From contig OX422205.1 of the NCBI GenBank assembly GCA_949130485.1, forward strand, positions 4,508,415-4,572,414: DNA of 64,000 nt, given 5' to 3'. The stretch comes from Agelas oroides. Its lineage: Eukaryota; Porifera; Demospongiae; Agelasida; Agelasidae. The translations under genes were made by a program, and so were the position numbers. The notes below the pieces were generated by a model, which saw only the letters and a program-made list of their open reading frames with translations, made no database searches and was not told where the DNA came from. Below are positions 3,001 through 38,392 of this stretch, piece by piece. Every line of letters starts with the position of its first letter. The stretch's first letter is position 1.

Positions 3001-5545
3001 ATACAGGCAAGTAGATCCATGGTAGAGTGTAGTAGAGTCATGTCGAAGCTAGTAGAGCAACGGTAGAATGTAGAAGAGTAATGATAGAGTGTAGTAGAGC
3101 TAAGTCGAACCAAGTAGAGCCGTGGTAGAGTGTAGTGGAGTCAAGTAGAGTCAAGAAGAGCAATGGCGGAATGATGTAGAATCGTGTAGATCAAGTAGAG
3201 CCTTGGTAGAATGTAGTAGAGCCATGGTAGAGTGTAGTAGAGCCACGTAGAGCAAAGAAGAGCCATAGTAGAGTGAAGTAGAACCAAGTAGAGCCATTGT
3301 AGAGTGTAGCAGAGTCATGTGGAGCCGACTACAGGCGTGGTAGAGTGTAGTAGAGGAAAGTAGAGTCAAGTAGAGCCATGGTAGTATGTAGTAGAGTCTT
3401 GTAGATTGAAGTACGGCCATGGTAGGATGTAGGAGATCCATGGCAGACTGTAGAAGTGCCAGGTACAGCCAAGTAGATCCATTGTAGAGTGTAGTAGAGT
3501 CATGTCGAATCTAGTAGAACCACGGTAGAATGTACAAGAGTAATTATAGAGTGTAGCAGAGCTAAGTAGAACCAAGTAGAGCCATGGTAGAGCGTAGTGG
3601 AGTCAAGTAGGGTCAAGAAGAGCAATGGTGGAATGAAGCAGAATCATATAGATCAAGTAGAGCCTTGATAGAATGTAGTACAGCCATGGTAGAGTGTAGA
3701 AGAGTCATGTAGAGTCATGTAGAGCCATGGTAAAGTGTAGTAGAGTGAAGTAGAGTCAAGTATGGCTATGGTAGAAAGTAGTAGAGTCGTGTAGAGTCAA
3801 GTGGAGCCTTGGTAGAATGTAGTAGAGCCATGGTAGACTGTAGTAGTATCAGGTACATCCAAGTAGATCGATGGTAGAGTGTAATAGAGTCATGTTGAAG
3901 CTAGTTGAGCCACGGTAGAATGTAGAAGACTAATCATAGAGTGTAGTAGAGATAAGTAGAACCAAGTACAGCTATGGTAGAGTGTAGTAGAGTCAAGTAG
4001 AGTCAAGTAGAGCCATGGTAGAGTGTAGTAGAGGGAAGAAGAGTCAAGTACGGCCATGGTAGAATGTAGTAGAGTCATGTAGAGTCAAGTATAGCTTTGG
4101 TAGAATGTAGTACAGCCATGGCAGACTGTAGTATAGAGTCAGGTACAGCCAAGTAGATCCATCGTAGTGTGTAGTAGAGTCATGTCGAAGCTAGTAGAAC
4201 CACGGTAGAATGTAGAAGAGTAATGATAGAGTGTAGTAGAGCTAAGTAGAACCAAGTAGAGACATGGTAGAGTGTAGTGGAGTCAAGTAGAGTCAAGAAG
4301 AGAAATGGTGGAATGAAGTAGAATCATGTAGATCAAGTAGAGCCTTGGTAGAATGTAGTAGAGCCATGGTAGTATGTAGTAGAGTGAAGTAGAACAAAGT
4401 AGAGCCATTGTAGAGTGTAGTAGAGTCAGGTGGAGCCGAGTAGAAGTGTTGTAGAGTGTAGTAAGTAGAGTCAAGTAGAGCGAAAGTAGAATGTAGTAGA
4501 GTCATGTAGAGTCAAGTAGAGCCTTGGTAGAATATAGTAGAGTCATGGTAGAGTGTAGTAGAGCCACGTAGAGCAAAGTAGAGCCATAGTAGATTGAAGT
4601 AGAACCAAGTAGAGCCATTGTAGAGTGTAGTAGAGTCATGTGGAGCAGAGTGGAGGCGTGGTAGTGTGTAGTAGAGGAAAGTAGAGTCAAGTAGAGCGAT
4701 AGTAGAATGTAGTAGAGTCATGTAGATTCATGTAGAGCCATGGTAGAGTGTAGTAGAGTCATAATAGGGTCAAGTAGAGCCTTGGTAGAGTGCAGTAGAG
4801 TGAAGTAGAGTCATGTCGAAGCTAGTAGAGCCACTGTAGAATGTAGAAGAGTAACCATAGAGTGTAGTAGAGATAAGTAGAAACAAGTACAGCCATGGAA
4901 GAGTGTAGTAGAGTCAAGTAGAATCAAGAAGAGCAATGGTGGAATGAAGTAGAGTCATGTAGAGTCAAGTAGAGCCTTGGTAATATATGGTAGACCAATG
5001 GTAGAGTATAGTAGAGCCACGTAGAGCAAAGTAGAGCCATAGTAGAGTGAAGTAGAACCAAGTAGAGTCATTGTAGAGTGTAGTAGAGTCATGTGGAACC
5101 GAGTGGAGGCGTGGTAGAGTGTAGTAGAGGAAAGTAGAGTCAAGTAGAGCCATCGTAGAATGTAGTAGAGTCATGTAGAGTCAAGTAGAGCCATGGTAGT
5201 GTGTAGTACAGTGAAGTAGAGTCAAATACGTCCATGGTAGAATGTAGTAAAGTGTTGTAGAGTCAAGTAGAGCTTTGGTAGAATATAGTAGAGCCATGGC
5301 AACTGTAGTAGTGCCATATACAGCCAAGTAGATCCATGGTAGAGTGTAGTAGAGTCATGTCGAAGCTAGTAGAGCCACGGTGGAATGTAGAAGAGTAATG
5401 ATAGAGTGTATTAGAGCTAAGTAGAACCAAGTAGAGCCATGGTAGAGTGTAGTGGAGTCAAGTACAGTGAAGAAGAGCAATGGTGGAATGAAGTAGACTC
5501 ATATAGAGCCAAGTAGAGCCTTGCATGGTAGAATGTAATAGAGCC
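1..5545 (+). repeat. Large HOR block L, copy 1 (left end outside the window)
   Basis: This block is collinear and nearly identical with 14264-20355. The offset between the copies shifts stepwise: 14,263 near position 260, 14,720 near 1,150, 14,484 near 1,870, 14,494 near 2,820, 14,689 near 3,890 and 14,810 from 4,501 on. Each shift marks an insertion or deletion of satellite modules in one copy. The block ends at a junction near 5,521-5,560: GTAATAGAGCC there is typical of block L, while GGTACAGTG a few bases later is typical of the 3-kb unit. A 4-bp CATG insertion (CCTTGCATGG) lies at the junction. No gene is present. Confidence 0.85.
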
Positions 5546-6668
5546 ATGGTACAGTGTAGTAGAGCCACGTAGAGCAAAGTAGAGCCATAGTAGAGTGAAG
5601 TAGAACCAAGTAGAGCCATTGTAGAGTGTAGTAGAGTCATGTGGAGCACAGTGGAGGCGTTGTAGTGTGTAGTAGAGGAAAGTAGAGTCAAGTAGAGCGA
5701 TAGTAGAATGTAGTAGAGTCATTTAGATTCAAGTAGAGCCATGGTAGAATGTAGTAGAGTCATAATAGAGTCAAGTAGAGCCTTGGTAGAGTGTAGTAGA
5801 GTGAAGTAGAGTCAAGTACGGCTAAGGTAGAATGTAGTAGAGCATTATAGAGTCAAGTAGAGACTTGGTAGAATGTAGCAGTGCCAGGTACAGCCAAGTA
5901 GATGCATGGTAGAGTGTAGTAGAGTAATGTCGAAGCTAGTAGAGCCACTGTAGAATGTAGAAGAGTAACCATAGGGTGTAGTAGAGATAAATAGAAACAA
6001 GTACAGCCATGGAAGAGTGTAGTAGATTCAAGTAGAGTCAAGAAGAGCAATGGTGGAATGAAGTAGAGTCATGTAGAGTCAAGTAGAGCCTTGGTAATAT
6101 ATGGTAGAGCCATGGTAGAGTGTAGTGGAGCCACGTAGAGCAAAGTAGAGCCATACTAGAGTGAAGTAGAACCAAGTAGAGTCATTGTAGAGTGTAGTAG
6201 AGTCATGTGGAGCCGAGTGGAGGCGTGGTAGAGTGCAGTAGAGGAAAGTAGAGTCAAGTAGAGCCATGGTAGAATGTAGTAGAGTGATGTAGAGTCGAGT
6301 AGAGCCATGGTAGTGTGTAGTACAGTGAAGTAGAGACAAATACGTCCATGGTAGAATGTAGTAAAGTGATGTAGAGTTAAGTAGAGCTTTGGTAGAATGT
6401 AGTAGAGCCATGGCAGACTGTAGTAGTGCCATATACAGCCAAGTAGATCCATGGTAGAGTGTAGTAGAGTCATGTCGAAGCTAGTAGAGCCACGGTAGAA
6501 TGTAGAAGAGTAATGATAGAGTGTATTAGAGCTAAGTAGAACCAAGTAGAGCCATGGTACAGTGTAGTGGAGTCAAGTAGAGCCATGGTAGAGTGTAGTA
6601 GAGTCATGTCGAAGCTAGTAGAGCCACGGTAGAATGTAGAAAATTAATGATAGAGTGTAGTGGAGCTA

Positions 6669-7094
6669 CACTGCAAAAACTGCTTAGTTAAAATTACCAC
6701 AAGTGCATGGTTACTACAGTTTCAAGGTTCATTGAACAGGGGGGTAGTATGATGAAAGGAATTCTAAAACACGATTATTATCCATCAACCCCCTCACAAT
6801 TCCATCTAGCTTCAAAGAGCTAGCACAGACGCTTGTCTGCTAGTCAACATGTCAGTTCATATGCATCCATCTGTTGGCTATTATCCTGTTCAGAACTGGA
6901 TAATTGCCAGCAGATGGATGCATATGAGCTGGTGTACGTTGGCTAGCAGACAAGTGTCTCTGAAGCTTGATGGATTGTGAGGGGGTTGATGGATAATAAT
7001 TGTGTTTTTGATTTCTTTAATCACCTGTTCAATAAATCCTGAAACTGCAGTAACCTTCACTCGTGATCATTTTAACCAAGTACTTTTTGCAGTG
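6669..7094. mobile_element. Foldback MITE-like element, copy 1 (426 bp)
   Basis: The element is not satellite sequence. It starts CACTGCAAAAA and ends with the exact inverse TTTTTGCAGTG. Almost its entire length is an imperfect inverted repeat: the left arm (about 6669-6886) matches the complement of the right arm (about 6898-7094). Examples are TCCATCAACCCCCTCACAAT against ATTGTGAGGGGGTTGATGGA, and ATGCATCCATCTG against CAGATGGATGCAT. It contains no open frame of useful size and no transposase. The bases next to each end are TA, and satellite copies without the element read GAGCTAAGTAG here, so the pattern is compatible with a TA target duplication. However, the right side reads TATAAGTAG, with one extra TA. 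No 8-bp duplication is visible, which argues against hAT. A non-autonomous Tc1/mariner-like MITE is the best guess. Confidence 0.88.
6880..6904. other. Apex hairpin of MITE copy 1
   Basis: The centre of the foldback element has a perfect 7-bp stem, ATTATCC (6880-6886) with GGATAAT (6898-6904), enclosing an 11-base loop. The long arms continue outward from it: 15 of the next 17 positions pair by my reading. A smaller self-complementary segment with CTAG at both ends lies within the left arm at 6820-6843 (GCACAGAC with GTCTGCTAG). A single-stranded or RNA form could fold into a hairpin of roughly 200 bp. Confidence 0.75.
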
Positions 7095-8571
7095 TATAAG
7101 TAGAACCAAGTAGAGCCATGGTAGTATGTAGTAGAGTCATGTAGAGTCAAGTAGAGCCATGGTAGAGTGTAGTAGAGTCATGTAGAGTCAAGTATAGAGA
7201 CATGGTAGAGTGTAGAAGAGTGAAGTAGAGTCAAGTAGAGCCTTGGTAGAATGTAGTAGACCCATGCTAGTGTGTAGTAGAGCTACGTAGAGCAAAGTAG
7301 AGCCATAGTAGAGTGAAGTAGGACCAAGTAGAGCCATGGTATAGAGTGCAGTGGAGTCAAGTAGAGTCAAGAAGAGCAATCGTGGAATGAAGTATAATCA
7401 TGTAGATCAAGTAGAGCCTTGGTAGAATGTAGTACAGCCATGGTAGAGTGGTGTAGAGCCACATAGAGCCATTGTAGGGTGTAGTAGAGTCATGTGGAAC
7501 CAAGTAGAGGCGTGGTAGAGTGTAGTAGAGGAAAGCAGAGTCAAGTAGAACTATGGTAGAATGTAGAAGAGTAAGGTAGAGTCAAGTAGAGTCATGGTAG
7601 AATGTAGTAGAGTCATGTAGAGTCAAGTAGAGCCGAGGTAGACTGTAGTAGAGTCATGTAGAGTCAATTAGAGCCAAGGTAGAGTGTAGTAGAATGAAGT
7701 AGAGTCAAGTACGGCCATGGTGGAACGTACTAGAGTGATTCAGAGTCAAGTAGAGCCTTGGTAGAAAGTAGTAGAGCCATGGGAGACTGTAGTAGTATCA
7801 GGTACATCCAAGCAGATCCATGGTAGAGTGTAATAGAGTCATGTCTAAGCTAGTAGAGCCACGGTAGAATGTAGAAAAGTAATCATAGAGTGTAGTAGAG
7901 ATAAGTAGAACCAAGTACAGCTATGGTAGAGTGTAGTAGAGTCAAGTAGAGTCAAGAAGAGCAATAGTGGAATGAAGTAGGGTCATGTAGTGTCAAGTAG
8001 AGCCTTGGTAGAATATAGTAGATCCATGGTAGAGTGTATAGTAGTGCCACGTAGAGCAAAGTAGAGCCATAGTAGAGTGAAGTAGAACCAAGTAGAGCCA
8101 TTGTAGAGTGTGATAGAGTCATGTGGAGCCGGGTGGAGGCGTGGTAGAGTTTAGTAGAGGAAAGTAGAGTCAAGTAGAGCCATGGTAGAATGTAGTAGAG
8201 TCATGTAGAGTCAAGTAGAGCCATGGTGGAGTGTAGTAGAGTGAAGTAGAGACAAGTACGGCCATGGTAGAATGGAGTAGAGTAATGTAGACTCAAGTAG
8301 AGCCTTAGTAGAATGCAGTAGAGCCATGGCAGACTGTAGTAGTGCCAGATACAGCCAAGTAGATCCATGGTAGTGTGTAGTAGAGTCATGTCGAAGCTAG
8401 TAGAGCGACGGTAGAATGTAGAAGAGTAATGATAGTGTGTAGTAGAGCTAGGTAGAACCAAGTTGAGCCATGGTAGAGCGTAGTGGAGTCAAGTAGAGTC
8501 AAGAGCAGCAATGGTGGAATGAAGTAGAATCATGTAGATCAAGTAGAGCCTTGGTAGAATGTAGTAGAGCC

Positions 8572-11500
8572 ATGGTACAGTGTAGTAGAGCCACGTAGAG
8601 CAAAGTAGAGCCATAGTAGAGTGAAGTAGAACCAAGTAGAGCCATTGTAGAGTGTAGTAGAGTCATGTGGAGCACAGTGGAGGCGTTGTAGTGTGTAGTA
8701 GAGGAAAGTAGAGTCAAGTAGAGCGATAGTAGAATGTAGTAGAGTCATTTAGATTCAAGTAGAGCCATGGTAGAATGTAGTAGAGTCATAATAGAGTCAA
8801 GTAGAGCCTTGGTAGAGTGTAGTAGAGTGAAGTAGAGTCAAGTACGGCTAAGGTAGAATGTAGTAGAGCATTATAGAGTCAAGTAGAGACTTGGTAGAAT
8901 GTAGCAGTGCCAGGTACAGCCAAGTAGATGCATGGTAGAGTGTAGTAGAGTAATGTCGAAGCTAGTAGAGCCACTGTAGAATGTAGAAGAGTAACCATAG
9001 GGTGTAGTAGAGATAAATAGAAACAAGTACAGCCATGGAAGAGTGTAGTAGATTCAAGTAGAGTCAAGAAGAGCAATGGTGGAATGAAGTAGAGTCATGT
9101 AGAGTCAAGTAGAGCCTTGGTAATATATGGTAGAGCCATGGTAGAGTGTAGTGGAGCCACGTAGAGCAAAGTAGAGCCATACTAGAGTGAAGTAGAACCA
9201 AGTAGAGTCATTGTAGAGTGTAGTAGAGTCATGTGGAGCCGAGTGGAGGCGTGGTAGAGTGCAGTAGAGGAAAGTAGAGTCAAGTAGAGCCATGGTAGAA
9301 TGTAGTAGAGTGATGTAGAGTCGAGTAGAGCCATGGTAGTGTGTAGTACAGTGAAGTAGAGACAAATACGTCCATGGTAGAATGTAGTAAAGTGATGTAG
9401 AGTCAAGTAGAGCTTTGGTAGAATGTAGTAGAGCCATGGCAGACTGTAGTAGTGCCATATACAGCCAAGTAGATCCATGGTAGAGTGTAGTAGAGTCATG
9501 TCGAAGCTAGTAGAGCCACGGTAGAATGTAGAAGAGTAATGATAGAGTGTATTAGAGCTAAGTAGAACCAAGTAGAGCCATGGTACAGTGTAGTGGAGTC
9601 AAGTAGAGCCATGGTAGAGTGTAGTAGAGTCATGTCGAAGCTAGTAGAGCCACGGTAGAATGTAGAAAATTAATGATAGAATGTAGTGGAGCTACACTGC
9701 AAAAACTGCTTAGTTAAAATTACCACAAGTGCATGGTTACTACAGTTTCAAGGTTCATTGAACAGGGGGGTAGTATGATGAAAGGAATTCTAAAACACGA
9801 TTATTATCCATCAACCCCCTCACAATTCCATCTAGCTTCAAAGAGCTAGCACAGACGCTTGTCTGCTAGTCAACATGTCAGTTCATATGCATCCATCTGT
9901 TGGCTATTATCCTGTTCAGAACTGGATAATTGCCAGCAGATGGATGCATATGAGCTGGTGTACGTTGGCTAGCAGACAAGTGTCTCTGAAGCTTGATGGA
10001 TTGTGAGGGGGTTGATCGATAATAATTGTGTTTTTGATTTCTTTAATCACCTGTTCAATAAACCCTGAAACTGCAGTAACCTTCACTCGTGGTCATTTTA
10101 ACCAAGTACTTTTTGCAGTGTATAAGTAGAACCAAGTAGAGCCATGGTAGTATGTAGTAGAGTCATGTAGAGTCAAGTAGAGCCATGGTAGAGTGTAGTA
10201 GAGTCATGTAGAGTCAAGTATAGAGACATGGTAGAGTGTAGAAGAGTGAAGTAGAGTCAAGTAGAGCCTTGGTAGAATGTAGTAGACCCATGCTAGTGTG
10301 TAGTAGAGCTACGTAGAGCAAAGTAGAGCCATAGTAGAGTGAAGTAGGACCAAGTAGAGCCATGGTAGAGTGCAGTGGAGTCAAGTAGAGTCAAGAAGAG
10401 CAATCGTGGAATGAAGTATAATCATGTAGATCAAGTAGAGCCTTGGTAGAATGTAGTACAGCCATGGTAGAGTGCTGTAGAGCCACATAGAGCCATTGTA
10501 GGGTGTAGTAGAGTCATGTGGAACCAAGTAGAGGCGTGGTAGAGTGTAGTAGAGGAAAGCAGAGTCAAGTAGAACTATGGTAGAATGTAGAAGAGTAAGG
10601 TAGAGTCAAGTAGAGTCATGGTAGAATGTAGTAGAGTCATGTAGAGTCAAGTAGAGCCGAGGTAGACTGTAGTAGAGTCATGTAGAGTCAATTAGAGCCA
10701 AGGTAGAGTGTAGTAGAATGAAGTAGAGTCAAGTACGGCCATGGTGGAACGTACTAGAGTGATTCAGAGTCAAGTAGAGCCTTGGTAGAAAGTAGTAGAG
10801 CCATGGGAGACTGTAGTAGTATCAGGTACATCCAAGCAGATCCATGGTAGAGTGTAATAGAGTCATGTCTAAGCTAGTAGAGCCACGGTAGAATGTAGAA
10901 AAGTAATCATAGAGTGTAGTAGAGATAAGTAGAACCAAGTACAGCTATGGTAGAGTGTAGTAGAGTCAAGTAGAGTCAAGAAGAGCAATAGTGGAATGAA
11001 GTAGGGTCATGTAGTGTCAAGTAGAGCCTTGGTAGAATATAGTAGATCCATGGTAGAGTGTAGTAGTGCCACGTAGAGCAAAGTAGAGCCATAGTAGAGT
11101 GAAGTAGAACCAAGTAGAGCCATTGTAGAGTGTGATAGAGTCATGTGGAGCCGGGTGGAGGCGTGGTAGAGTTTAGTAGAGGAAAGTAGAGTCAAGTAGA
11201 GCCATGGTAGAATGTAGTAGAGTCATGTAGAGTCAAGTAGAGCCATGGTGGAGTGTAGTAGAGTGAAGTAGAGACAAGTACGGCCATGGTAGAATGGAGT
11301 AGAGTAATGTAGACTCAAGTAGAGCCTTAGTAGAATGCAGTAGAGCCATGGCAGACTGTAGTAGTGCCAGATACAGCCAAGTAGATCCATGGTAGTGTGT
11401 AGTAGAGTCATGTCGAAGCTAGTAGAGCGACGGTAGAATGTAGAAGAGTAATGATAGTGTGTAGTAGAGCTAGGTAGAACCAAGTTGAGCCATGGTAGAG

Positions 11501-11593
11501 CGTATAGGAGTCAAGTAGAGTCACGAGCAGCAATGGTGGAATGAAGTAGAATCATGTAGATCAAGTAGAGCCTTGGTAGAATGTAGTAGAGCC
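8572..11593 (+). repeat. 3.02-kb HOR, unit B (3,022 bp), carries MITE copy 2
   Basis: This full unit is nearly identical to unit A (offset 3,026) and to unit C (offset 3,022). It shares with unit C, against unit A, the flanking variant GATAGAATGTAG at 9681 and two MITE substitutions (C at 10063, G at 10092). B and C are therefore sister copies. The private substitution C at 10017 (TTGATCGAT) is found only here. No coding content is seen. Confidence 0.87.
9695..10120. mobile_element. Foldback MITE-like element, copy 2 (426 bp)
   Basis: The termini and inverted-repeat structure match copy 1, and it sits at the same place in the 3-kb unit (GGAGCTA on the left, TATAAGTAG on the right). It differs from copy 1 at a handful of bases, including C for G at 10017, C for T at 10063 and G for A at 10092. 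The identical insertion point and flanks show that it arose by amplification of the satellite unit and is not an independent insertion. Confidence 0.88.
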
Positions 11594-13630
11594 ATGGTAC
11601 AGTGTAGTAGAGCCACGTAGAGCAAAGTAGAGCCATAGTAGAGTGAAGTAGAACCAAGTAGAGCCATTGTAGAGTGTAGTAGAGTCATGTGGAGCACAGT
11701 GGAGGCGTTGTAGTGTGTAGTAGAGGAAAGTAGAGTCAAGTAGAGCGATAGTAGAATGTAGTAGAGTCATTTAGATTCAAGTAGAGCCATGGTAGAATGT
11801 AGTAGAGTCATAATAGAGTCAAGTAGAGCCTTGGTAGAGTGTAGTAGAGTGAAGTAGAGTCAAGTACGGCTAAGGTAGAATGTAGTAGAGCATTATAGAG
11901 TCAAGTAGAGACTTGGTAGAATGTAGCAGTGCCAGGTACAGCCAAGTAGATGCATGGTAGAGTGTAGTAGAGTAATGTCGAAGCTAGTAGAGCCACTGTA
12001 GAATGTAGAAGAGTAACCATAGGGTGTAGTAGAGATAAATAGAAACAAGTACAGCCATGGAAGAGTGTAGTAGATTCAAGTAGAGTCAAGAAGAGCAATG
12101 GTGGAATGAAGTAGAGTCATGTAGAGTCAAGTAGAGCCTTGGTAATATATGGTAGAGCCATGGTAGAGTGTAGTGGAGCCACGTAGAGCAAAGTAGAGCC
12201 ATACTAGAGTGAAGTAGAACCAAGTAGAGTCATTGTAGAGTGTAGTAGAGTCATGTGGAGCCGAGTGGAGGCGTGGTAGAGTGTAGTAGAGGAAAGTAGA
12301 GTCAAGTAGAGCCATGGTAGAATGTAGTAGAGTGATGTAGAGTCGAGTAGAGCCATGGTTGTGTGTAGTACAGTGAAGTAGAGACAAATACGTCCATGGT
12401 AGAATGTAGTAAAGTGATGTAGAGTCAAGTAGAGCTTTGGTAGAATGTAGTAGAGCCATGGCAGACTGTAGTAGTGCCATATACAGCCAAGTAGATCCAT
12501 GGTAGAGTGTAGTAGAGTCATGTCGAAGCTAGTAGAGCCACGGTAGAATGTAGAAGAGTAATGATAGAGTGTATTAGAGCTAAGTAGAACCAAGTAGAGC
12601 CATGGTACAGTGTAGTGGAGTCAAGTAGAGCCATGGTAGAGTGTAGTAGAGTCATGTCGAAGCTAGTAGAGCCACGGTAGAATGTAGAAAATTAATGATA
12701 GAATGTAGTGGAGCTACACTGCAAAAACTGCTTAGTTAAAATTACCACAAGTGCATGGTTACTACAGTTTCAAGGTTCATTGAACAGGGGGGTAGTATGA
12801 TGAAAGGAATTCTAAAACACGATTATTATCCATCAACCCCCTCACAATTCCATCTAGCTTCAAAGAGCTAGCACAGACGCTTGTCTGCTAGTCAACATGT
12901 CAGTTCATATGCATCCATCTGTTGGCTATTATCCTGTTCAGAACTGGATAATTGCCAGCAGATGGATGCATATGAGCTGGTGTACGTTGGCTAGCAGACA
13001 AGTGTCTCTGAAGCTTGATGGATTGTGAGGGGGTTGATGGATAATAATTGTGTTTTTGATTTCTTTAATCACCTGTTCAATAAACCCTGAAACTGCAGTA
13101 ACCTTCACTCGTGGTCATTTTACCAAGTACTTTGTGCAGTGTATAAGTAGAACCAAGTAGAGCCATGGTAGTATGTAGTAGAGTCATGTAGAGTCAAGTA
13201 GAGCCATGGTAGAGTGTAGTAGAGTCATGTAGAGTCAAGTATAGAGACATGGTAGAGTGTAGAAGAGTGAAGTAGAGTCAAGTAGAGCCTTGGTAGAATG
13301 TAGTAGACCCATGCTAGTGTGTAGTAGAGCTACGTAGAGCAAAGTAGAGCCATAGTAGAGTGAAGTAGGACCAAGTAGAGCCATGGTAGAGTGCAGTGGA
13401 GTCAAGTAGAGTCAAGAAGAGCAATCGTGGAATGAAGTATAATCATGTAGATCAAGTAGAGCCTTGGTAGAATGTAGTACAGCCATGGTAGAGTGCTGTA
13501 GAGCCACATAGGGCCATTGTAGGGTGTAGTAGAGTCATGTGGAACCAAGTAGAGGCGTGGTAGAGTGTAGTAGAGGAAAGCAGAATCAAGTAGAACTATG
13601 GTAGAATGTAGAAGAGTAAGGTAGAGTCAA
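11594..13630 (+). repeat. 3.02-kb HOR, unit C (partial, about 2.04 kb), carries MITE copy 3
   Basis: The unit follows unit B at a 3,022-bp offset through the MITE and about 490 bp beyond it, then leaves the 3-kb pattern near 13,630. There GTAGAGTCAAGTAGAGCC continues into a module with an extra TA (GTAGTATAGAGTC, about 13,651) that is not part of the 3-kb unit. The unit is truncated by about 1 kb relative to B. Beyond this point the sequence leads back towards block L. Confidence 0.83.
12717..13141. mobile_element. Foldback MITE-like element, copy 3 (425 bp)
   Basis: This is the third copy at the equivalent site. It shares the C and G variants of copy 2 against copy 1. It has lost one A in the right terminal region (TTTTACCAAG in place of TTTTAACCAAG, about 13,121) and has a T-to-G change in the right terminus (TTTGTGCAGTG, 13134). 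The damaged terminus would probably impair mobilisation if a transposase were supplied in trans, which is inference from the general dependence of such elements on intact ends. Confidence 0.88.
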
Positions 13631-14263
13631 GTAGAGCCATGGTAGAGTGTAGTATAGAGTCATGTAGAGTCAAGTAGTGCCATGGTAGAGTGTAGTAGAG
13701 TGAAATAGATTCAAGTTCGGCCATGGTAGAATGTAGTAGGGTCAGGTAGAGTCAAGTAGAGCCATGGTAGAGTGTAGTAGAGTGAAGTAGAGTCAAGTAC
13801 GGCCATGGTAGAATGTAGTAGAGTCATGTAGAGTCAAGTAGAGCTTTTGTAGAATGTAGTAGAGCCATGGCAGACTGTAGTAGTGCCAGGTACAGCCAAG
13901 AAGATCCATGGTAGAGTGTAGTAGAGTCATGTCGAAGCTAGTAGATCCACGGTAGAATGTAGAAAAGTAATGATAGAGTGTAGTGGAGCTAAGTAGAACC
14001 AAGTAGAGTCATGGTAGAGTGTAGTGGAGTCAAGTAGAGTCAAGAAGAGCAATTGTGGAATGAAGTAGAATCATGTAGATCAAGTAGAGCCTTGGTAGAA
14101 TGTAGTAGAGCCATGGTAGAGTGTAGTAGAGCCACGTAGAGCAAAGTAGAGTCATAGTAGGGTGAAGTAGAACCAAGTAGAGCCATTATAGAGTGTAGTA
14201 GAGTCATGTGGAGCCGAGTAGAGGCGTGGTAGAGTGTAGTAGAGGAAAGTACAGCCATGGTAG
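13631..14263 (+). repeat. Satellite between the 3-kb HOR and block L copy 2
   Basis: This stretch is ordinary 41-bp module sequence with TTCGGCC and TACGGCC variants and a full phrase containing GGTACAGCC, TCGAAGC and GAAGAGCAA. It is the upstream neighbour of block L copy 2. Its counterpart for copy 1 would lie left of the window. Nothing else is seen here. Confidence 0.75.
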
Positions 14264-15410
14264 AATGTAGTAGGGTGATGTAGAGTCAAGTAGAGCCTTG
14301 GTAGAATGTAGTAGAGCCATGGCAGACTGTAGTAGTATTAGGTACATCCAAGTAGATTGATGGTAGAGTGTAATAGACTCATGTTGAAGCTAGTTGAGCT
14401 ACGGTAGAATGTAGAAGGCTAATCATAGAGTGTAGTAGAGATAAGTGGAACCAAGTACAGCTATGGTAGAGTGAAGTAGAGTCAAGTTGAACCAAGTAGA
14501 GCCATGGTAGAGTGTAGTAGAGTCAAGTAGAGTCAAGAAGAGCAATGGTGGAATGAAGTACAGTCATGTAGAGCCAAGTAGAGCCTTGGTAGAATGTAGT
14601 AGAGCCATGGTAGAGTGTAGTAGAGCCACGTAGAACAAAGTAGAGCCATAGTAGGGTGAAGTAGAACCAAGTAGAGCCATTATAGAGCGGAGTAGAGTCA
14701 TGTGGAGCCGAGTTGAGGCGCAGTAGAGTGCAGTAGAGGAAAGTAGTGTCAAGTAGAGCTATGGTAGAATGTAGTAGATTCATGTAGAGTCAAGTAGAGA
14801 CATGGTAGACTGTAGTAGAGTCATGTAGAGTCAAGTAGAGCCACGGTAGACAGTAGTAGAGTGAAGTAGAGTCAAGTACGGCCAGGGTAGAATGTAGTAG
14901 AGTCATGTAGAGTCAAGTAGAGCCATGGTAGACTGTAGTAGAGTGAAGTAGAGTCAAGTACGGCCAGGGTAGAATGTAGTAGAGTCATGTAGAGTCAAGT
15001 AGAGCCTTGGTAGAATGTAGTAGAGCCATGGCAGACTGTAGTAGTGCCGGTACAGCCAAGGAGATCCATGGTAGAGTGTAGTAGTGTCATGTCGAAGCTA
15101 GTATAGAGACACGGTAGGATGTAGAAGAGTAATGATAGAGTGTAGTGGAGCTAAGTAGAACCAAGTAGAGCCATGGTAGAGTGTAGTAGAGTCAAGTACA
15201 GTCAAGAAGAGCAATGGTGGAATGAAGTAGAATCATGTAGATCAAGTAGAGCCTTGGTAGAATGTAATAGAGCCATGGTAGAGTGCAGTAGAACCACATA
15301 GAGCCATTCTAGGGTGTAGTAGAGTCATGTGGAGCCGAGTAGAAGCGTGGTAGAGTGTAGTAGAGGAAAGTAGAGTCAAGTAGACCTATGGTAGAGTGTA
15401 GTAGAGTCAT

Positions 15411-15870
15411 GTAGAGTCAAGTAGAGCCATGGTAGAGTGTAGTAGAGTGAAGTAGAGTCAAGTTCGGCCATGGTAGAATGTAGTAGAGTCATGTCGAGTC
15501 AAGGGGAGCCACGGTAGAGTGTAGTAGAGTGAAGTAGAGTCAAGTTCGGCCATGGTAGAATGTAGTAGAGCCAGGTAGAGTCAAGTAGACCCATGGAAGA
15601 GTGGAGTAGAGTCATGTAGAGTCAAGTTGATCCATGGTAGAGTGTAGTAGAGTGAAGTAGAGTCATGTTTGGCCATGGTAGAATGTAGTAGAGTCATGTA
15701 GAGTCAAGTAGAGCCATGGTAGAGTGTAGTAGAGTGAAATAGAGTCAAGTTCGGCCATGGTAGAATGTAGTAGAGTCAGGTAGAGTCAAGTAGAGCCATG
15801 GTAGAGTGTAGTAGAGTCATGTAGAGTCAAGTAGACCCATGGTAGAGTGTTGTAGAGTCATGTAGAGTCA
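15411..15870 (+). repeat. Local expansion of a two-module (about 82-bp) unit in block L copy 2
   Basis: A run of alternating modules, one with GTTCGGCCATGG and the next with GAGCCATGG preceded by TAGAGTCATG, is repeated several times. Copy 1 has a single such pair at about 1140-1210. The offset between the two L copies jumps by 457 bp here, close to 11 modules (451 bp). This is a recent local amplification by unequal exchange or slippage within one copy. The exact ends are approximate. Confidence 0.7.
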
Positions 15871-17086
15871 AGTAGAGCCATGGTAGAGTGTAGTAGAGTG
15901 AAGTAGAGTCAAGTACGGCGATGGTAGAATGTAGTAGAGCCATGGTAGACTGTAGTAGTGCCAGGTACAGCCAAGTAGATCCATGGTAGAGTGCAGTAAA
16001 GTCATGTCGAAGCTAGTAGAGCCACGGTAGAATGTAGAAGAGCAATTATAGAGTGTAGTAGAGCTAAGTAGAACCAAGTAGAGCTATGGTAGAGTGTAGT
16101 AGAGTGAAGTAGAGTCAGGAAGAGCAATGGTGGAATGAAGTAGAATCATGTAGAGCCAAGTAGAGCCTTGGTAGAATGAAGTAGAGCCATGGTAGAGTGT
16201 AGTGGAGTGAAGTAGAATCAAGTACGGCCATGGTAGAATGTAGTAGGGTGATGTAGAGTCAAGTAGAACCTTGGTAGAGTGTAGTAGACCCATGGCAGAC
16301 TGCAGTAGTATCAGGTACATGCAAGTAGATTGATGGTAGAGTGTAATAGAGTCATGTTGAAGCTACTTGAGCCACGGTAGAATGTAGAAAGCTAATCATA
16401 GAGTGTAGTAGAGATAAGTATAACCAAGTACAGCTATGGTAGAGTGTAGTAGAGTCAAGTAGAGTCAAGTAGAGCCATGGTAGAGTGTAGTAGAGTGAAG
16501 AAGAGTCAAGTACGGCCATGGTAGAATGTAGTAGAGTCATGTAGAGTCAAGTATAGCTTTGGTAGAATGTAGTAGAGCCATGGCAGACAGTAGTAGAGCC
16601 AGGTACAGCCAAGTAGATCCATGGTAGAGTGTAGTAGAGTCATGTCGAAGCTAGTAGAACCACGGTAGAATGTAGAAGAGTAATGATAGAGTGTAGTGGA
16701 GCTAAGTAGAACCAAGTAGAGACATGGGAGAGTGTAGTGGAGTCAAGTAGAGTCAAGAAGAGCAATGGTGGAATGAAGCAGAATCATGTAGAGCAAGTAG
16801 AGCCTTCGTAGAATGTAGTAGGGCCATGGTAGTGTGTAGTAGAGCCACGTAGAGCAAAGTAGAGCCATAGTAGAGTGAAGTAGAACAAACTAGAGCCATT
16901 ATAGAGTGTAGTAGAGTCAGGTGGAGCCAAGTAGAGGCGTGGTAGAGTGTAGTAGAGAAAAGTAGAGTGAAGCAGAGCGATGGTAGAATGCAGTAGAGTC
17001 ATGTAGAGTAAAGTAGAGCCATGGTAGAGTGTAGTAGAGTCATATAGAGTCCAGTAGAGCCATGGTAGAGTGTAGTAGAGTGAAGT

Positions 17087-17106
17087 AGAGTGAAGTAGAG
17101 TCAAGT
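17087..17106 (+). repeat. Single 10-mer duplication (GTGAAGTAGA twice)
   Basis: The word GAGTGAAGTA occurs twice in a row here in block L copy 2, where copy 1 (about 2600) has it once. The offset between the copies changes by exactly 10 bp across this site (14,484 to 14,494). It shows that the 10-mer, and not only the 41-mer, can act as a unit of duplication. Confidence 0.7.
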
Positions 17107-19187
17107 ACGGCCATGGAAGAATGTAGTAGAGTCATGTAGAGTGAATAGAGCCTTGGTAGAATATAGTAAAGCCATGGTAGATTGTAGTAGAGCCACGTAG
17201 AGCAAAGAAGAGCCATAGTAGAGTGCAGTAGAACCAAGTAGAGCCATTGTAGTGTGTAGTAGAGTCATGTGGAGCAGAGTGGAGGCGTGGTAGTGTGTAG
17301 TAGAGGAAAGTAGAGTCAAGTAGAGCCATGGTAGAATGAAGTACAGTCATGTAGAGTCAAGTAGAGCCATGATAGAGTGTAGTAGAGTGAAGTAGAGAAG
17401 AGTACGGCCATGGTAGAATGTAGTAGAGACATGTAGAGTGAAGTAGAGCCTTGGGAGAATGTAGCAGAGCCATGGTAGACTGTAGTAGTGTCATATACAG
17501 GCAAGTAGATCCATGGTAGAGTGTAGTAGAGTCATGTCGAAGCTAGTAGAGCAACGGTAGAATGTAGAAGAGTAATGATAGAGTGTAGTAGAGCTAAGTC
17601 GAACCAAGTAGAGCCATGGTAGAGTGTAGTGGAGTCAAGTAGAGTCAAGAAGAGCAATGGTGGAATGATGTAGAATCGTGTAGATCAAGTAGAGCCTTGG
17701 TAGAATGTAGTAGAGCCATGGTAGAGTGTAGTAGAGCCACGTAGAGCAAAGAAGAGCCATAGTAGAGTGAAGTAGAACCAAGTAGAGCCATTGTAGAGTG
17801 TAGCAGAGTCATGTGGAGCCGAGTACAGGCGTGGTAGAGTGTAGTAGAGGAAAGTAGAGTCAAGTAGAGCCATGGTAGTATGTAGTAGAGTCTTGTAGTT
17901 TGAAGTACGGCCATGGTAGGATGTACTAGATCCATGGCAGACTGTAGAAGTGCCAGGTACAGCCAAGTAGATCCATGGTAGAGTGTAGTAGAGTCATGTC
18001 GAATCTAGTAGAACCACGGTAGAATGTAGAGGAGTAATTATAGAGTGTAGCAGAGCTAAGTAGAACCAAGTAGAGCCATGGTAGAGCGTAGTGGAGTCAA
18101 GTAGGGTCAAGAAGAGCAATGGTGGAATGAAGTAGAATCATATAGATCAAGTAGAGCCTTGGTAGAATGTAGTACAGCCATGGTAGTGTGTAGTAGACCC
18201 ACGTAGAGCAAAGTAGAGCCATACTAGAGTGAAGTAGAGCAAAGTAGAGCCATTGTAGAGGGTAGTAGAGTCAGGTGGAACCGAGTAGAGGCGTGGTAGA
18301 GTGTAGTAGAGGAAAGTAGAGTCAAGTAGCGCGATGGTAGAATGTGGTAGAGTCATGTAGAGTCAAGTAGAGCCATGGTAGAGTGTAGTAGAGTCATGTA
18401 GAGTCATGTAGAGCCATGGTAGAGTGTAGTAGAGTGAAGTAGAGTCAAGTACGGCTATGGTAGAAAGTAGTAGAGTCGTGTAGAGTCAAGTGGAGCCTTG
18501 GTAGAATGTAGTAGAGCCATGGCAGACTGTAGTAGTATCAGGTACATCCAAGTAGATCGATGGTAGAGTGTAATAGAGTCATGTGGAAGCTAGTTGAGCC
18601 ACGGTAGAATGTAGAAGACTAATCATAGAGTGTAGTAGAGATAAGTAGAACCAAGTACAGCTATGGTAGAGTGTAGTAGAGTCAAGTAGAGTCAAGTAGA
18701 GCCATGGTAGAGTGTAGTAGAGGGAAGAAGAGTCAAGTACGGCCATGGTAGAATGTAGTAGAGTCATGTAGAGTCAAGTATAGCTTTGGTAGAATGTAGT
18801 AGAGCCATGGCAGAGTGTAGTAGAGTCAGGTACAGCCAAGTAGATCCATCGTAGTGTGTAGTAGAGTCATGTCGAAGCTAGTAGAACCACGGTAGAATGT
18901 AGAAGAGTAATGATAGAGTGTAGTAGAGCTAAGTAGAACCAAGTAGAGACATGGTAGAGTGTAGTGGAGTCAAGTAGAGTCAAGAAGAGAAATGGTGGAA
19001 TGAAGTAGAATCATGTAGATCAAGTAGAGCCTTGGTAGAATGTAGTAGAGCCATGGTAGTATGTAGTAGAGTGAAGTAGAACAAAGTAGAGCCATTGTAG
19101 AGTGTAGTAGAGTCAGGTGGAGCCGAGTAGAAGCGTTGTAGAGTGTAGTAAGTAGAGTCAAGTAGAGCGAAAGTAGAATGTAGTAGA

Positions 19188-19310
19188 GTCATGTAGAGTC
19201 AAGTAGAGCCATGGAAGAGTGTAGTAGAGTTATATAGAGTGAAGTAGAGCCATGGTAGAGTGTAGTAGAGTGAAGTAGAGTCAAGGACGGCCATGGTAGA
19301 ATGTAGTAGA
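19188..19310 (+). repeat. Three-module (123-bp) segment present only in block L copy 2
   Basis: The word GTCATGTAGAGTCAAGTAGA begins at 19188 and again at 19311, but only once (4501) in copy 1. The offset between copies changes by exactly 123 bp, which is 3 x 41. The extra segment contains GGAAGAG, GTTATATAGAG and AAGGACGGCC variants. Either copy 2 gained it or copy 1 lost it. The exact multiple of the module shows that exchange is in register. Confidence 0.8.
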
Positions 19311-20355
19311 GTCATGTAGAGTCAAGTAGAGCCTTGGTAGAATATAGTAGAGTCATGGTAGAGTGTAGTAGAGCCACGTAGAGCAAAGTAGAGCCATAGT
19401 AGATTGAAGTAGAACCAAGTAGAGCCATTGTAGAGTGTAGTAGAGTCATGTGGAGCAGAGTGGAGGCGTGGTAGTGTGTAGTAGAGGAAAGTAGAGTCAA
19501 GTAGAGCGATAGTAGAATGTAGTAGAGTCATGTAGATTCAAGTAGAGCCATGGTAGAGTGTAGTAGAGTCATAATAGGGTCAAGTAGAGCCTTGGTAGAG
19601 TGCAGTAGAGTGAAGTAGAGTCATGTCGAAGCTAGTAGAGCCACTGTAGAATGTAGAAGAGTAACCATAGAGTGTAGTAGAGATAAGTAGAAACAAGTAC
19701 AGCCATGGAAGAGTGTAGTAGAGTCAAGTAGAGTCAAGAAGAGCAATGGTGGAATGAAGTAGAGTCATGTAGAGTCAAGTAGAGCCTTGGTAATATATGG
19801 TAGACCAATGGTAGAGTATAGTAGAGCCACGTAGAGCAAAGTAGAGCCATAGTAGAGTGAAGAAGAACCAAGTAGAGTCATTGTAGAGTGTAGTAGAGTC
19901 ATGTGGAACCGAGTGGAGGCGTGGTAGAGTGTAGTAGAGGAAAGTAGAGTCAAGTAGAGCCATCGTAGAATGTAGTAGAGTCATGTAGAGTCAAGTAGAG
20001 CCATGGTAGTGTGTAGTACAGTGAAGTAGAGTCAAATACGTCCATGGTAGAATGTAGTAAAGTGTTGTAGAGTCAAGTAGAGCTTTGGTAGAATATAGTA
20101 GAGCCATGGCAACTGTAGTAGTGCCATATACAGCCAAGTAGATCCATGGTAGAGTGTAGTAGAGTCATGTCGAAGCTAGTAGAGCCACGGTGGAATGTAG
20201 AAGAGTAATGATAGAGTGTATTAGAGCTAAGTAGAACCAAGTAGAGCCATGGTAGAGTGTAGTGGAGTCAAGTACAGTGAAGAAGAGCAATGGTGGAATG
20301 AAGTAGACTCATGTAGAGCCAAGTAGAGCCTTGGTAGAATGTAATAGAGCCATGG

Positions 20356-20508
20356 TAGAGTGTAGTAGAGCCACGTAGAGCAAAGTAGAGCCATAGTAGG
20401 GTGAAGTAGAACCAAGTAGAGTCAATATAGAATGTAGTAGAGTCATGTGGAGCCGAGTAGAGGTGTGGTAGAGTGTAGTAGAGGAAAGTAGAGTCAAGTA
20501 GAGCCATG
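20356..20508 (+). repeat. Transition between block L copy 2 and the MITE-free 3-kb segment
   Basis: This short stretch of satellite has AATATAGAATG and GAGGTGTGG variants. It has no near-identical partner in copy 1, which has already crossed into the 3-kb unit at this point. It probably preserves part of the original right end of block L that the copy 1 rearrangement removed. Confidence 0.6.
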
Positions 20509-22515
20509 GTAGAATGTAATAGAGTCATGTAGAGTCAAGTAGAGCCGAGGTAGACTGTAGTAGAGTCATGTAGAGTCAATTAGAGCCAAGGTAGAGTGTA
20601 GTAGAATGAAGTAGAGTCAAGTACGGCCATGGTGGAACGTACTAGAGTGATTCAGAGTCAAGTAGAGCCTTGGTAGAAAGTAGTAGAGCCATGGGAGACT
20701 GTAGTAGTATCAGGTACATCCAAGCAGATCCATGGTAGAGTGTAATAGAGTCATGTCTAAGCTAGTAGAGCCACGGTAGAATGTAGAAAAGTAATCATAG
20801 AGTGTAGTAGAGATAAGTAGAACCAAGTACAGCTATGGTAGAGTGTAGTAGAGTCAAGTAGAGTCAAGAAGAGCAATAGTGGAATGAGTAGGGTCATGTA
20901 GTGTCAAGTAGAGCCTTGGTAGAATATAGTAGATCCATGGTAGAGTGTAGTAGTGCCACGTAGAGCAAAGTAGAGCCATAGTAGAGTGAAGTAGAACCAA
21001 GTAGAGCCATTGTAGAGTGTGATAGAGTCATGTGGAGCCGGGTGGAGGCGTGGTAGAGTTTAGTAGAGGAAAGTAGAGTCAAGTAGAGCCATGGTAGAAT
21101 GTAGTAGAGTCATGTAGAGTCATGTAGAGCCATGGTGGAGTGTAGTAGAGTGAAGTAGAGACAAGTACGGCCATGGTAGAATGGAGTAGAGTAATGTAGA
21201 CTCAAGTAGAGCCTTAGTAGAATGCAGTAGAGCCATGGCAGACTGTAGTAGTGCCAGATACAGCCAAGTAGATCCATGGTAGTGTGTAGTAGAGTCATGT
21301 CGAAGCTAGTAGAGCGACGGTAGAATGTAGAAGAGTAATGATAGTGTGTAGTAGAGCTAGGTAGAACCAAGTTGAGCCATGGTAGAGTGTAGTGGAGTCA
21401 AGTAGAGTCAAGAGCAGCAATGGTGGAATGAAGTAGAATCATGTAGATCAAGTAGAGCCTTGGTAGAATGTAGTAGAGCCATGGTACAGTGTAGTAGAGC
21501 CACGTAGAGCAAAGTAGAGCCATAGTAGAGTGAAGTAGAACCAAGTAGAGCCATTGTAGAGTGTAGTAGAGTCATGTGGAGCACAGTGGAGGCGTTGTAG
21601 TGTGTAGTAGAGGAAAGTAGAGTCAAGTAGAGCGATAGTAGAATGTAGTAGAGTCATTTAGATTCAAGTAGAGCCATGGTAGAATGTAGTAGAGTCATAA
21701 TAGAGTCAAGTAGAGCCTTGGTAGAGTGTAGTAGAGTGAAGTAGAGTCAAGTACGGCTAAGGTAGAATGTAGTAGAGCATTATAGAGTCAAGTAGAGTCT
21801 TGGTAGAATGTAGCAGTGCCAGGTACAGCCAAGTAGATGCATGGTAGAGTGTAGTAGAGTAATGTCGAAGCTAGTAGAGCCACTGTAGAATGTAGAAGAG
21901 TAACCATAGGGTGTAGTAGAGATAAATAGAAACAAGTACAGCCATGGAAGAGTGTAGTAGATTCAAGTAGAGTCAAGAAGAGCAATGGTGGAATGAAGTA
22001 GAGTCATGTAGAGTCAAGTAGAGCCTTGGTAATATATGGTAGAGCCATGGTAGAGTGTAGTGGAGCCACGTAGAGCAAAGTAGAGCCATACTAGAGTGAA
22101 GTAGAACCAAGTAGAGTCATTGTAGAGTGTAGTAGAGTCATGTGGAGCCGAGTGGAGGCGTGGTAGAGTGCAGTAGAGGAAAGTAGAGTCAAGTAGAGCC
22201 ATGGTAGAATGTAGTAGAGTGATGTAGAGTCGAGTAGAGCCATGGTAGTGTGTAGTACAGTGAAGTAGAGACAAATACGTCCATGGTAGAATGTAGTAAA
22301 GTGATGTAGAGTCAAGTAGAGCTTTGGTAGAATGTAGTAGAGCCATGGCAGACTGTAGTAGTGCCATATACAGCCAAGTAGATCCATGGTAGAGTGTAGT
22401 AGAGTCATGTCGAAGCTAGTAGAGCCACGGAAGAATGTAGAAGAGTAATGATAGAGTGTATTAGAGCTAAGTAGAACCAAGTAGAGCCATGGTAGAGTGT
22501 AGTGGAGTCAAGTAG
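20509..22515 (+). repeat. Segment D: about 2.0 kb of the 3-kb unit, without the MITE
   Basis: This segment is nearly identical to about 10621-12620 (offset 9,888, then 9,887 after a 1-bp deletion near 20,888). Both carry the CCGAGGTAGACTG, GTGGAACGTACTAG and GATTCAGAG markers. It diverges just before the place where units A to C lead into the MITE: D reads GGTAGAGTGTAGTGGAG and goes on to a GAAGAGCAA module, whereas A to C read GGTACAGTGTAGTGGAG and pass through an extra phrase to the element. It is therefore either an ancestral form or a recombinant that excluded the MITE segment. Confidence 0.83.
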
Positions 22516-25500
22516 AGTCAAGAAGAGCAATGGTGGAATGAAGTAGACACATGTAGAGCCAAGTAGAGTCTTGGTAGAATGTAGTAGAGCCATGATAGAG
22601 TGTAGTAGAGCCACGTAGAGCAAAGTAGAGCCATAGTAGGGTGAAGTAGAACCAAGTAGAGCCATTATAGAATGTAGTAGAGTCATGTGGAGCCGAGTAT
22701 AGGTGTGGTAGAGTGTACTAGAGGAAAGTAGAGTCAAGTAGAGTCATGGTAGAATGTAGTAGAATCATGTAGAGTCAAGTAGAGCCAAGGTAGACTGTAG
22801 TAGAGTCATGTAGAGTCAAGTAGAGCCATGGTAGAGTGTAGTAGAGTGAAGTAGAGTCAAGTACGGCCAATGTAGAATGTACTAGAGTGATTCAGAGTCA
22901 AGTAGAGCCTTGGTAGAATGTAGTAGAGCCATGGGAGACTGTAGGAGTATCAGGTACATCCAAGTAGATCCACGGTAGAGTGTAATAGCGTCATGTCCAA
23001 GCTAGTAGAGCCACGGTAGAATGTAGAAAAGTAATCATAGAGTGTAGTAGAGATAAGTAGAACCAAGTACAAGTATGGTAGAGTGTAATAGAGTCAAGTA
23101 GAGTCAAGAAGAGCAATGGTGGAATGAAGTAGGGTCATGTAGAGTCAAGTACAGCCTTGGTAGAATATAGTAGAGCCATGGTAGAGTGTAGTAGTGCCAC
23201 GTAGAGCAAAGTAGAGCCATAGTAGAGTGAAATAGAACCAAGTACAGGTATGGTAGAGTGTAATAGAGTCATGTGGAGCCGGGTGGAGGCGTGGTAGAGT
23301 TTAGTAGAGGAAAGTAGAGTCAAGTAGAGCCATGGTAGAATGTAGTAGAGTCATGTAGAATCAAGTAGAGCCATGATAGAGTGTAGTAGAGTGAAGTAGA
23401 GACAAGTACGGCCATAGTAGAATGTAGTAGAGTAATGTAGACTCAAGTAGAACCTTAGTAGAATGCAGTAGAGGCATAGCAGACTGTAGTAGTGCCAGGT
23501 ACAGCCAAGTAGATCCATGGTAGTGTGTAGTAGAGTCATGTCGAAGCTAGTAGAGCGACGGTAGAATGTAGAAGAGTAATGATAGTGTGTAGTAGAGCTA
23601 GGTAGAACCAAGTTGAGCAATGTTAGAGTGTAGTGGAGTCAAGTAGAGTCAAGAGGAGCAATGGTGGAATGAAGTAAAATTATGTAGATCAAGTAGATCC
23701 TTTGTAGAATGTAGTAGAGCCATGGTAGAACAAACTAGAGCCATGGTAGAGTGAAGTAGAACCAAGTGGAGCCATTGTAGAGTGTAATAGAGTCATGTGG
23801 AGCCGAGTAGAGGCTTGGAAGGGTGTAGTAGAGGAAAGTAGAGTCAAGTAGAGCCATGGTAGTATGTAGTTGAGCCATGTAAAGTCAAGCCGAGCCATGG
23901 TAGAGTGTAGTAGAGTCATGTAGAGCCTTGGTAGAATGTAGTAGAGTCATGGTAGAGTGTAGTAGAGCCACGTAGAGCAAAGTAGAGCCATAGTAGAGCG
24001 AAGTAGAACCAAGTAGAGCCATGGTAGAGTGTAGTAGAGTCAAGTAGTGTCAAGAAGAGCAATGGTGGAATGAAGTAGAGCCATGAAGAGTCAAGTAGAG
24101 CCTTGGTAAAATATAGTAGAGCCATGGTAGGGTGTAGTAGAGCCACGTAGAGCAAAGTAGAGCCATAGTAGAGTGAAGTACCAAGTAGAGCCATTGTAGA
24201 GTGTAGTAGAGTCATGTGGAGCCGTGTGGAGGCGTGGTAGAGTGTAGTAGAGGAAAGTAGAGTCAAGTAGAGCCATGGCAGAATGTAGAAGAGTCAGGTG
24301 GAGTCAAGTAGAGCCATGGTAGAGTGTAGTAGAGTCATGTAGAGTCAAGTAGAGCCATGGTAGAGTGTAGTAGAGTGAAGTAGAGTCAAGTTTGGCCATG
24401 GAAGAATGTGGTAGAGTCATGTAGAGTCATGTAGTGCCATGCTAGAGTGTAGTGGAGTGAAGTAGAGTCAAGTACGGCCATGGTAGAATGAAGTAGAGCC
24501 ATGGCAGACTGTAGTAGTGCCAGGTACAGCCAAGTAGATCCATGGCAGAGTGTAGTAGAGTCATGTCAAAGCTAGTAGAGCCATGGTACAATGTAGAACA
24601 GTAATAATAGAGTGTAGTAGAGATAAGTAGAACCAAGTACAGCCATGGTAGAGTGTAATAGAGTCAAGCAGAGTCAAGAAGAGCAATTGTGGAATGAAGA
24701 AGAGTCATGTAGATCCAGTAGAGCCTTGGTAGCATATCGTAGAGCCATGGTAGAGAGTAGGAGAGCCACGTAGAGCAAAGTAGAGGCATAGTGGAGTAAA
24801 GTAGAAACAAGTAGAGCCATTGTAGAGTGTAGGAGAGTCATGTGGAGCCGAGTGGAAGCATGGTAGAGTGTAGTAGAGGAAAGTAGACTCAAGTAGAGCC
24901 ATGGTAGAATGTAGTAGAGTCATGTAGAGTTAAGTAGAGCCATGGTAGAGTGTAGTAGAGTGAAGAAGAGGCAAGTACGTCCATGGTAGAATGTAGTAGA
25001 GTCATGTAGAGTCATGTAGAGCTTTGGAAGAATGTAGTAGAGCCGTGGCAGACTGTAGTTGTGCCAGGTACAGCCAAGTAGATCGATGGTCAGAGTGTAG
25101 TAGAGTCATGTCGAAGCTACTAGAGCCACGGTAGAATGTAGAAGAGTAATGACAGAGTGTAGTAGAGCTAAGTAGAACCAAGTAGAGCCATGGTAGAGTG
25201 TAGTGGAGTCAAGTAGAGTCAACAAGAGCAATGGTGGAATGAAGTAGAATCATGTAGATCAAGTAGAGCCTTGGTAGAATGTAGTAGAGCCATGGTAGAG
25301 TGAAGTAGAGCCATGTAGAGCAAAGTAGAGCCATAGTAGAGTCAAGTAGAACCAAGTAGAGCCATTGTAGAATGTAGAAGAGTCATGTGGAGCCGAGTAG
25401 AGGCGTGTTAGAGTGTAGTAGAGGAAAGCAGAGTCAAGTAGAGCCATGGTCCAGTGTAGTAGAGTCATGTAGAGTCAAGTAGAGCCATGGTAGGGTGTAG

Positions 25501-37987: not shown

Positions 37988-38392
37988 TCAAGTAGAGCCA
38001 TTGCAGAATGTAGTAGAGTCATGTAGAGTCAAGTAGAGCCATGGTAGAGTGTAGTAGAGTGAAGTAGAGTCAAGTACGGCCATGGTAGAATGTAGTAGAG
38101 TCATGTAGAGTCCAGTAGAGACTTGGTAAAATGTAGTACAGCCATGGCAGACTGTAGTAGCACAAGTTACAGGCAAGTAGATCCATGGTAGAGTGTAGTA
38201 GAGTCATGTGGAGCCGAGTGGAGGCCTGGTAGAGTGTAGTAGGGGAAAGTAGAGTCAAGTAGAGCCATTGTAGAATGTAGTAGAGTCATGTAGGGTCAAG
38301 TAGAGCCATGGTAGAGTGTAGTAGACTGAAGTAGAGTCAAGTACGGCCATGGTAGAATGTAGTAGAGTCATGTAGAGTCAAGTAAAGCCTTG

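Follow-up and report, generated by a model that had tools for sequence, protein, structure and literature searches.

Do near-identical copies of a mobile element inside a satellite array record repeated insertions, or a single insertion that the satellite has multiplied? The question is raised by a 64,000-nucleotide stretch of the sponge Agelas oroides (contig OX422205.1, C23:4508415-4572414; hereafter the window) from a genome of 259.3 Mb in 141 contigs, which we read together with the 60 kb around it (40 kb on the left and 20 kb on the right), 124 kb in total. The element is a foldback miniature inverted-repeat transposable element (MITE). Copy A lies at 6669..7094 (426 bp, with ends CACTGCAAAAA..TTTTTGCAGTG), copy B at 9695..10120 (426 bp) and copy C at 12717..13141. 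A first description made from the letters of the window (the sequence-only reading) had reported three near-identical foldback elements of 426 bp each, recurring at the same satellite position with spacings of 3,026 and 3,022 bp. The places and both spacings (starts 6669, 9695 and 12717) were confirmed, and the length is right for A and B, but C measures 425 bp, with a 1-bp deletion and a T>G change close to its right end. Two further copies, M1 (C23:4503333, window position -5081) and M2 (C23:4506730, window position -1684), lie outside the window, 8-12 kb upstream of A and at the same satellite site.

The five array copies descend from one insertion. All of them occupy an identical insertion site, and each is nearest to other array copies: the differences number 0-4 against these (2-3 of 425-426 among A, B and C) and 13-32 against the six closest dispersed copies in the comparison. 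The dispersed copies came from a genome search, proposed with the sequence-only reading, for relatives outside the satellite, which did recover a dispersed family. This sample is not exhaustive (40 of 481 candidates were scored); it comprises 37 dispersed rows from 36 distinct places, two of which, a duplicate place and a short row, were dropped from the tree. In the resulting phylogeny of 40 aligned copies (five array and 35 dispersed), the array copies formed one clade with a support of 1.000 and a stem of 0.030. Once positions with gaps or with variation among dispersed copies had been excluded, 12 substitutions were common to the five array copies and missing from the nearest whole dispersed copies (L015, L016 and L017). 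The single insertion and subsequent amplification with the satellite that had been proposed are thus borne out by one site in five copies, one clade, and the gap between internal and dispersed differences.

A rival explanation is that the MITE inserted several times independently, at a satellite word that it prefers. The target word is indeed common, with 90 exact empty sites (GAGCTA-AGTAGAACC) in the 124 kb, and among dispersed copies TA accounts for more target duplications than any other dinucleotide (9 of the 16 matching). However, all five copies share the 12 substitutions missing from L015-L017, the same extra TA at the right junction, and near-identical flanks over 84 bp on the left and about 0.5 kb on the right. 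A 40-mer carrying four of the stem substitutions, searched across the assembly at up to three mismatches, occurred at five places, all in this array, and therefore in no dispersed copy. A 43-mer of the young subfamily found 13 places, namely the five array copies, five dispersed copies without mismatch and three with 2-3 mismatches. We rejected a hotspot of independent insertions on the copy tree and the 40-mer search, and regard this explanation as extremely improbable.

The junctions read alike in A, B and C, with GAGCTA followed by CACTGC on the left and GCAGTG followed by TATAAGTAGAACC on the right, and the junction word TATAAGTAGAACC occurs in the 124 kb only at the five elements; the empty sites there read GAGCTAAGTAGAACC. 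An 84-bp left flank (6585..6668, forward strand), ending in the TA target duplication, is common to the five copies with two variable columns, while over the 316 positions to its left A, B and C differ from M1 and M2, with 116 variable columns. On the right, a near-identical flank of about 0.5 kb (7095..7590, forward strand) begins with TATAAG; A and B depart from this element type at about 7592-7608 (A coordinates). The flanks had been called identical. Site and junctions are the same, but the flanks are only near-identical, and that of C on the right follows A and B for only about 0.5 kb before changing type.

The 3-kb unit is a chimera. It combines about 1.0 kb that resembles M1 and M2 (the 84 bp, the element and about 0.5 kb) with an element-free block of about 2.0 kb that resembles 20488-22517. 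The latter block occurs in the A-B interval (7608..9610; 99.0-100% like 20488-22517 in 300-bp windows inside it), in the B-C interval (10632..12632; 98.7-100%) and, with no element beside it, at 20488..22517, always on the forward strand. On their left, A, B and C match one another and 20229-22517 (96-97.5% over 1.8-2.3 kb), but match M1 and M2 for 84 bp only. The block breakpoints lie 84 bp to the left and about 0.5 kb to the right of the element. C together with what follows on its right (12633..20200, forward strand) has a paralogue in M2 and its own right-hand sequence (window -1768 to about 5390), at shifts of 14.26-14.81 kb with indels. Among 38 windows of 300 bp starting at 12600-20000, 28 match the M2 side at 97% or more, four at 94-96%, and the remaining six, interrupted by indels or other repeats, have their best match elsewhere.

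The sequence-only reading had taken the 3-kb unit for the higher-order repeat of the array, grown in two rounds of amplification. Neither view was supported. A search for repeat shifts in the 124 kb (matches of at least 800 bp at 93% or more) found that a shift of 3.02 kb links only units A and B, which adjoin head to tail, with other shifts elsewhere (for example 1.0, 1.97, 3.4, 3.9, 4.4 and 14.4 kb); the 3-kb unit appears only as the A-B and B-C intervals, and no single multimeric unit extends over much of the array. Shifts of about 3.03, 3.40 and 14.3-14.8 kb were observed, and five copies need at least four duplications.

Kinship among the copies was assessed with dispersed copies and element-free sites as outgroups. 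In the order M1, M2, A, B, C and in A coordinates, the left flank varies at 6632 (TTGGG) and 6655 (GGGAA), and the element at 6775 (GGTTT), 6991 (GGGCG), 6999 (CCAAA), 7037 (CCTCC), 7066 (GGAGG) and 7087 (TTTTG), in addition to position 7074, which is lost in C. The dispersed copies, used as outgroup, indicate derived states in M1 and M2 at 6775 and 6999, in A only at 7037 and 7066, and in C only at 7074 and 7087. At 6991 the change is in B: where the closest dispersed copies have a base, it is the G of the other four array copies, although more distant ones vary. All 46 element-free sites at 95% identity or more have G at 6632, which indicates that M1 and M2 changed. At 6655, 45 of these sites have G, one has T and none has A, so that A is a derived base common to B and C.

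B and C had been considered sisters on the basis of three variants. One of them, at 9681 (equivalent to 6655), is derived and shared by B and C. The other two, at 10063 and 10092 (7037 and 7066), are changes private to A: M1 and M2 have the same state as B and C, as do, respectively, 32 of 33 and 31 of 31 dispersed copies that have a base at these positions. Moreover, a single base on the left groups B with C, whereas the entire spacer of about 2.0 kb on the right groups it with A, and the right flank of C groups with M2 and not with A and B. Sister status is therefore valid only segment by segment, as the two sides of the element differ in history.

Divergence falls stepwise, from 12 stem substitutions relative to L015-L017, through 3-4 differences of 425-426 positions between the M copies and A, B and C, to the 2-3 within this trio. 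Units A and B differ by 10 substitutions and four gap columns in a 3,026-column alignment. M1 and M2 show no difference over about 1,650 bp, following nine clustered at the edge of the match (-6038 to -5952); over 1,650 bp the A/B rate predicts about 5.5 differences. The M1/M2 duplication would thus be the youngest. By simple proportion, the element would have been single-copy for roughly 85-90% of its time in the array, an estimate that presumes a steady rate and no conversion, and relative-rate counts cast some doubt on the former. With L019, L021 and L054 as outgroups, copy B had accumulated 11-13 changes and the five longer of its close dispersed relatives 1-3 (p 0.002-0.035); with L055, the same comparison gave 6-8 against 2-4 (p 0.11-0.75). 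A sixth relative, the short copy L042, yielded 2-3 against 0 (p 0.25-0.5). Compared with L015-L018 and L020, the array lineage is perhaps older, perhaps faster. Tip lengths vary widely across the MITE family, which makes age and rate inseparable, and we do not claim faster change in the array copy. Contrary to its description as a dated marker, the MITE gives only a relative order; a date would require a calibrated clock.

These observations very probably reflect one MITE insertion followed by passenger copying through unequal exchange in the satellite. A non-autonomous foldback cut-and-paste MITE of the dispersed family would have inserted once at GAGC-TA-AGTAGAACC, duplicating TA, and would have remained single-copy while about 12 substitutions accumulated. 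Unequal exchange between similar satellite stretches would then have carried this passenger along in at least four duplications. A large segmental duplication may first have separated the M lineage from the A/B/C lineage; next, the element-bearing block of about 1.0 kb would have joined the element-free block of about 2.0 kb, and the 3.02-kb chimera would have been tandemly repeated to give A, B and C; last, a 3.4-kb duplication would have yielded M1 and M2. The single site, the single clade, the five copies and the chimeric units are observed directly; from them we infer both the mechanism, unequal crossing over, and the sequence of steps.

Several observations weigh against this history. The right junction carries one TA more than a plain TA duplication predicts (TATAAG, where TAAG is expected), and the 124 kb contain no GAGCTATAAG; the extra TA may stem from TA slippage or from a variant target. 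Nothing closely related to the intact empty site turned up in the 124 kb: the joined short flanks match at about 87% at best and longer joins (300+300 bp) reach just 85-87%, while the 84-bp left part and a 200-bp right part, each taken alone, match element-free places at up to 98.8% and 97.5%, respectively. Three of the 12 array states occur singly in no sampled dispersed copy, but the other nine are also found, singly, in 1-5 of 28-35 dispersed copies; it is the combination, not each substitution, that is restricted to the array. The satellite array extends past both ends of the 124 kb. Finally, as neither the 3.4-kb nor the 14.4-kb duplicates lie next to each other, the steps that produced them call for rearrangement afterwards, and gene conversion could also account for the likeness of the copies.

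After the same single insertion, another mode of spread can be envisaged in place of unequal crossing over, namely gene conversion or the formation and reinsertion of circles. It would fit the clustering of the nine M1-M2 differences at one edge before about 1,650 identical bp, the abrupt switches between flank types and the non-adjoining duplicates. We nevertheless consider it unlikely, since the five elements and the satellite all share one strand and units A and B lie head to tail, as tandem exchange predicts.

The element might also have been more than a passenger. Copy A, the one folded among A, B and C, forms one long hairpin of -145.2 kcal/mol as DNA (mean of shuffles -45.3, z -24.5, none of 100 shuffles equally good), with 174 of 200 aligned arm positions paired. 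Breaks or fork stalling within about 0.5 kb of such a palindrome could have driven the chimeric 3-kb amplification and the later duplications, a role compatible with both one insertion and unequal exchange. Its high stability and the breakpoints 84 bp and about 0.5 kb away are in keeping with this, and of the 58 windows lying no more than 2 kb from an element, 50 have a copy at 98.5% or more, whereas 90 of the 355 other windows do; among 413 circular shifts, counting the unshifted arrangement, 7 reached 50. This test is partly circular, however, as an element present in five copies lies in duplicated DNA by definition. In addition, an element-free block of like size (38001-46701) was duplicated as recently, and the hairpin is decaying: nine of the 12 stem changes broke an arm pair and one made a pair, which also gives no sign of templating of one arm by the other. 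A seeding role for the hairpin is, in our view, quite unlikely, and as part of the passenger history the element is most likely inert here.

An assembly artefact that multiplied one element would account for the identity of M1 and M2 over about 1,650 bp. It is very unlikely, because A, B, C and the M pair each carry private substitutions and differ in their wider flanks.

The dispersed family places the element among MITEs. It is short, with long inverted repeats and no space for a transposase, and its dispersed relatives have target-site duplications. Across the genome, 148 terminal inverted repeat (TIR) ends were found within three mismatches, and none with a reversed-pattern control. Of the 37 dispersed rows, 20 aligned end to end; 16 of these have identical 2-bp flanks (mispaired control 0.27), and none has 3-bp agreement. 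The 16 duplications are TA (nine), AA (three), TG (two), AG (one) and TT (one). As in Tc1/mariner-derived MITEs, TA is the commonest, but the other seven set this family apart; strict-TA mariner elements are not known to make non-TA duplications, and we rejected a strict-TA mariner origin. The termini are CACTG, which fits the CACTA-group end motif, although the literature searched for that motif contained no occurrence of it. Termini of the CACT(A/G) type together with target duplications of 2-3 bp are what is expected of CACTA/EnSpm, and the dispersed family is perhaps CACTA/EnSpm-like. The animal CACTA/EnSpm (TRC) element SmTRC1 likewise has 2-bp target duplications, a 2-bp direct repeat being given for 7 of 14 copies in PMC1636069, although the animal CACTA TIRs printed there start with CCCTAG and CCCAGT, and not with CACTG. 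Text searches of titles and abstract openings with the TIR word and for CACTG, 2-bp and foldback MITEs found no paper on this family.

The analysis linked no transposase to the ends of the family. The Pfam domain Transposase_21, of CACTA transposases, occurs at 22 genome places, and the nearest of 82 TIR ends lies 90.6 kb from any of them; no matching TIR pair was found at 10 of the 22 loci in about 3.4 kb each, beyond which the element ends may lie. As a candidate autonomous partner we considered C2:20857700-20863800, chosen for its three TIR ends within 6 kb and resembling a 3.2-kb element, and rejected it as an interrupted MITE relative of about 458 bp. The interruption of about 2.8 kb includes a different repeat of about 2.2 kb, whole copies of the relative exist on C9 and C23, and none of the six open reading frames (ORFs) of at least 80 aa in this 6.1-kb region has a Pfam match at E up to 1. 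The 2.2-kb repeat (L075, about 3427-5603) has 41-bp inverted ends and at least 14 other genome places at 93-96%, some partial, with no Pfam match in the listed ORFs.

The 124 kb are almost wholly one satellite, based on a word of about 10, 21, 31 or 41 bp; a satellite 31-mer has 25,880 genome places at up to one mismatch (10,190 forward and 15,690 reverse). Its strand bias is near-complete over the 124 kb, with roughly 100-140 GTAGA per 2 kb in satellite blocks and no TCTAC in any 2-kb block except one with three, inside a foreign stretch, so that large inverted segments are absent. Besides the MITEs, the exception to the satellite is this foreign stretch (about C23:4485.9-4492 kb); it holds an unrelated 186-bp tandem repeat of 10.8 copies in the scanned part with 97% matches (L010 7991-10000; L010 starts at C23:4486405). 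Insertions of TA recur among satellite copies, at 7340-7341 and 8037-8038 in A and as TATA at the five right junctions, and perhaps represent a slippage habit of the satellite. At 37906-46919, a MITE-free duplication with a 4.4-kb shift (99.2%) and inner 1,045-bp units indicates that recent growth happens without the element too.

A unique tag in a monotonous satellite makes single duplications visible, along with where they broke and in which order they occurred, all of which plain units hide. In this array the tag points to growth through duplications of several sizes with shifting breakpoints and not to steady copying of a fixed higher-order unit, and variants that appear shared inside a window can mislead without outgroup copies. 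A review (PMC10048060) treats the association of satellites and transposable elements, and literature searches on elements that are amplified along with satellite arrays brought up reviews and papers on centromeres or satellites. The tagging of satellite growth by a mobile element is a known and ordinary process, here well resolved. As in other satellite arrays with carried-along transposable elements, the element recurs at the same site from unit to unit and multiplies together with the units; what differs here is the unit, a local chimera of small size with five copies of the element and no array-wide higher-order unit.

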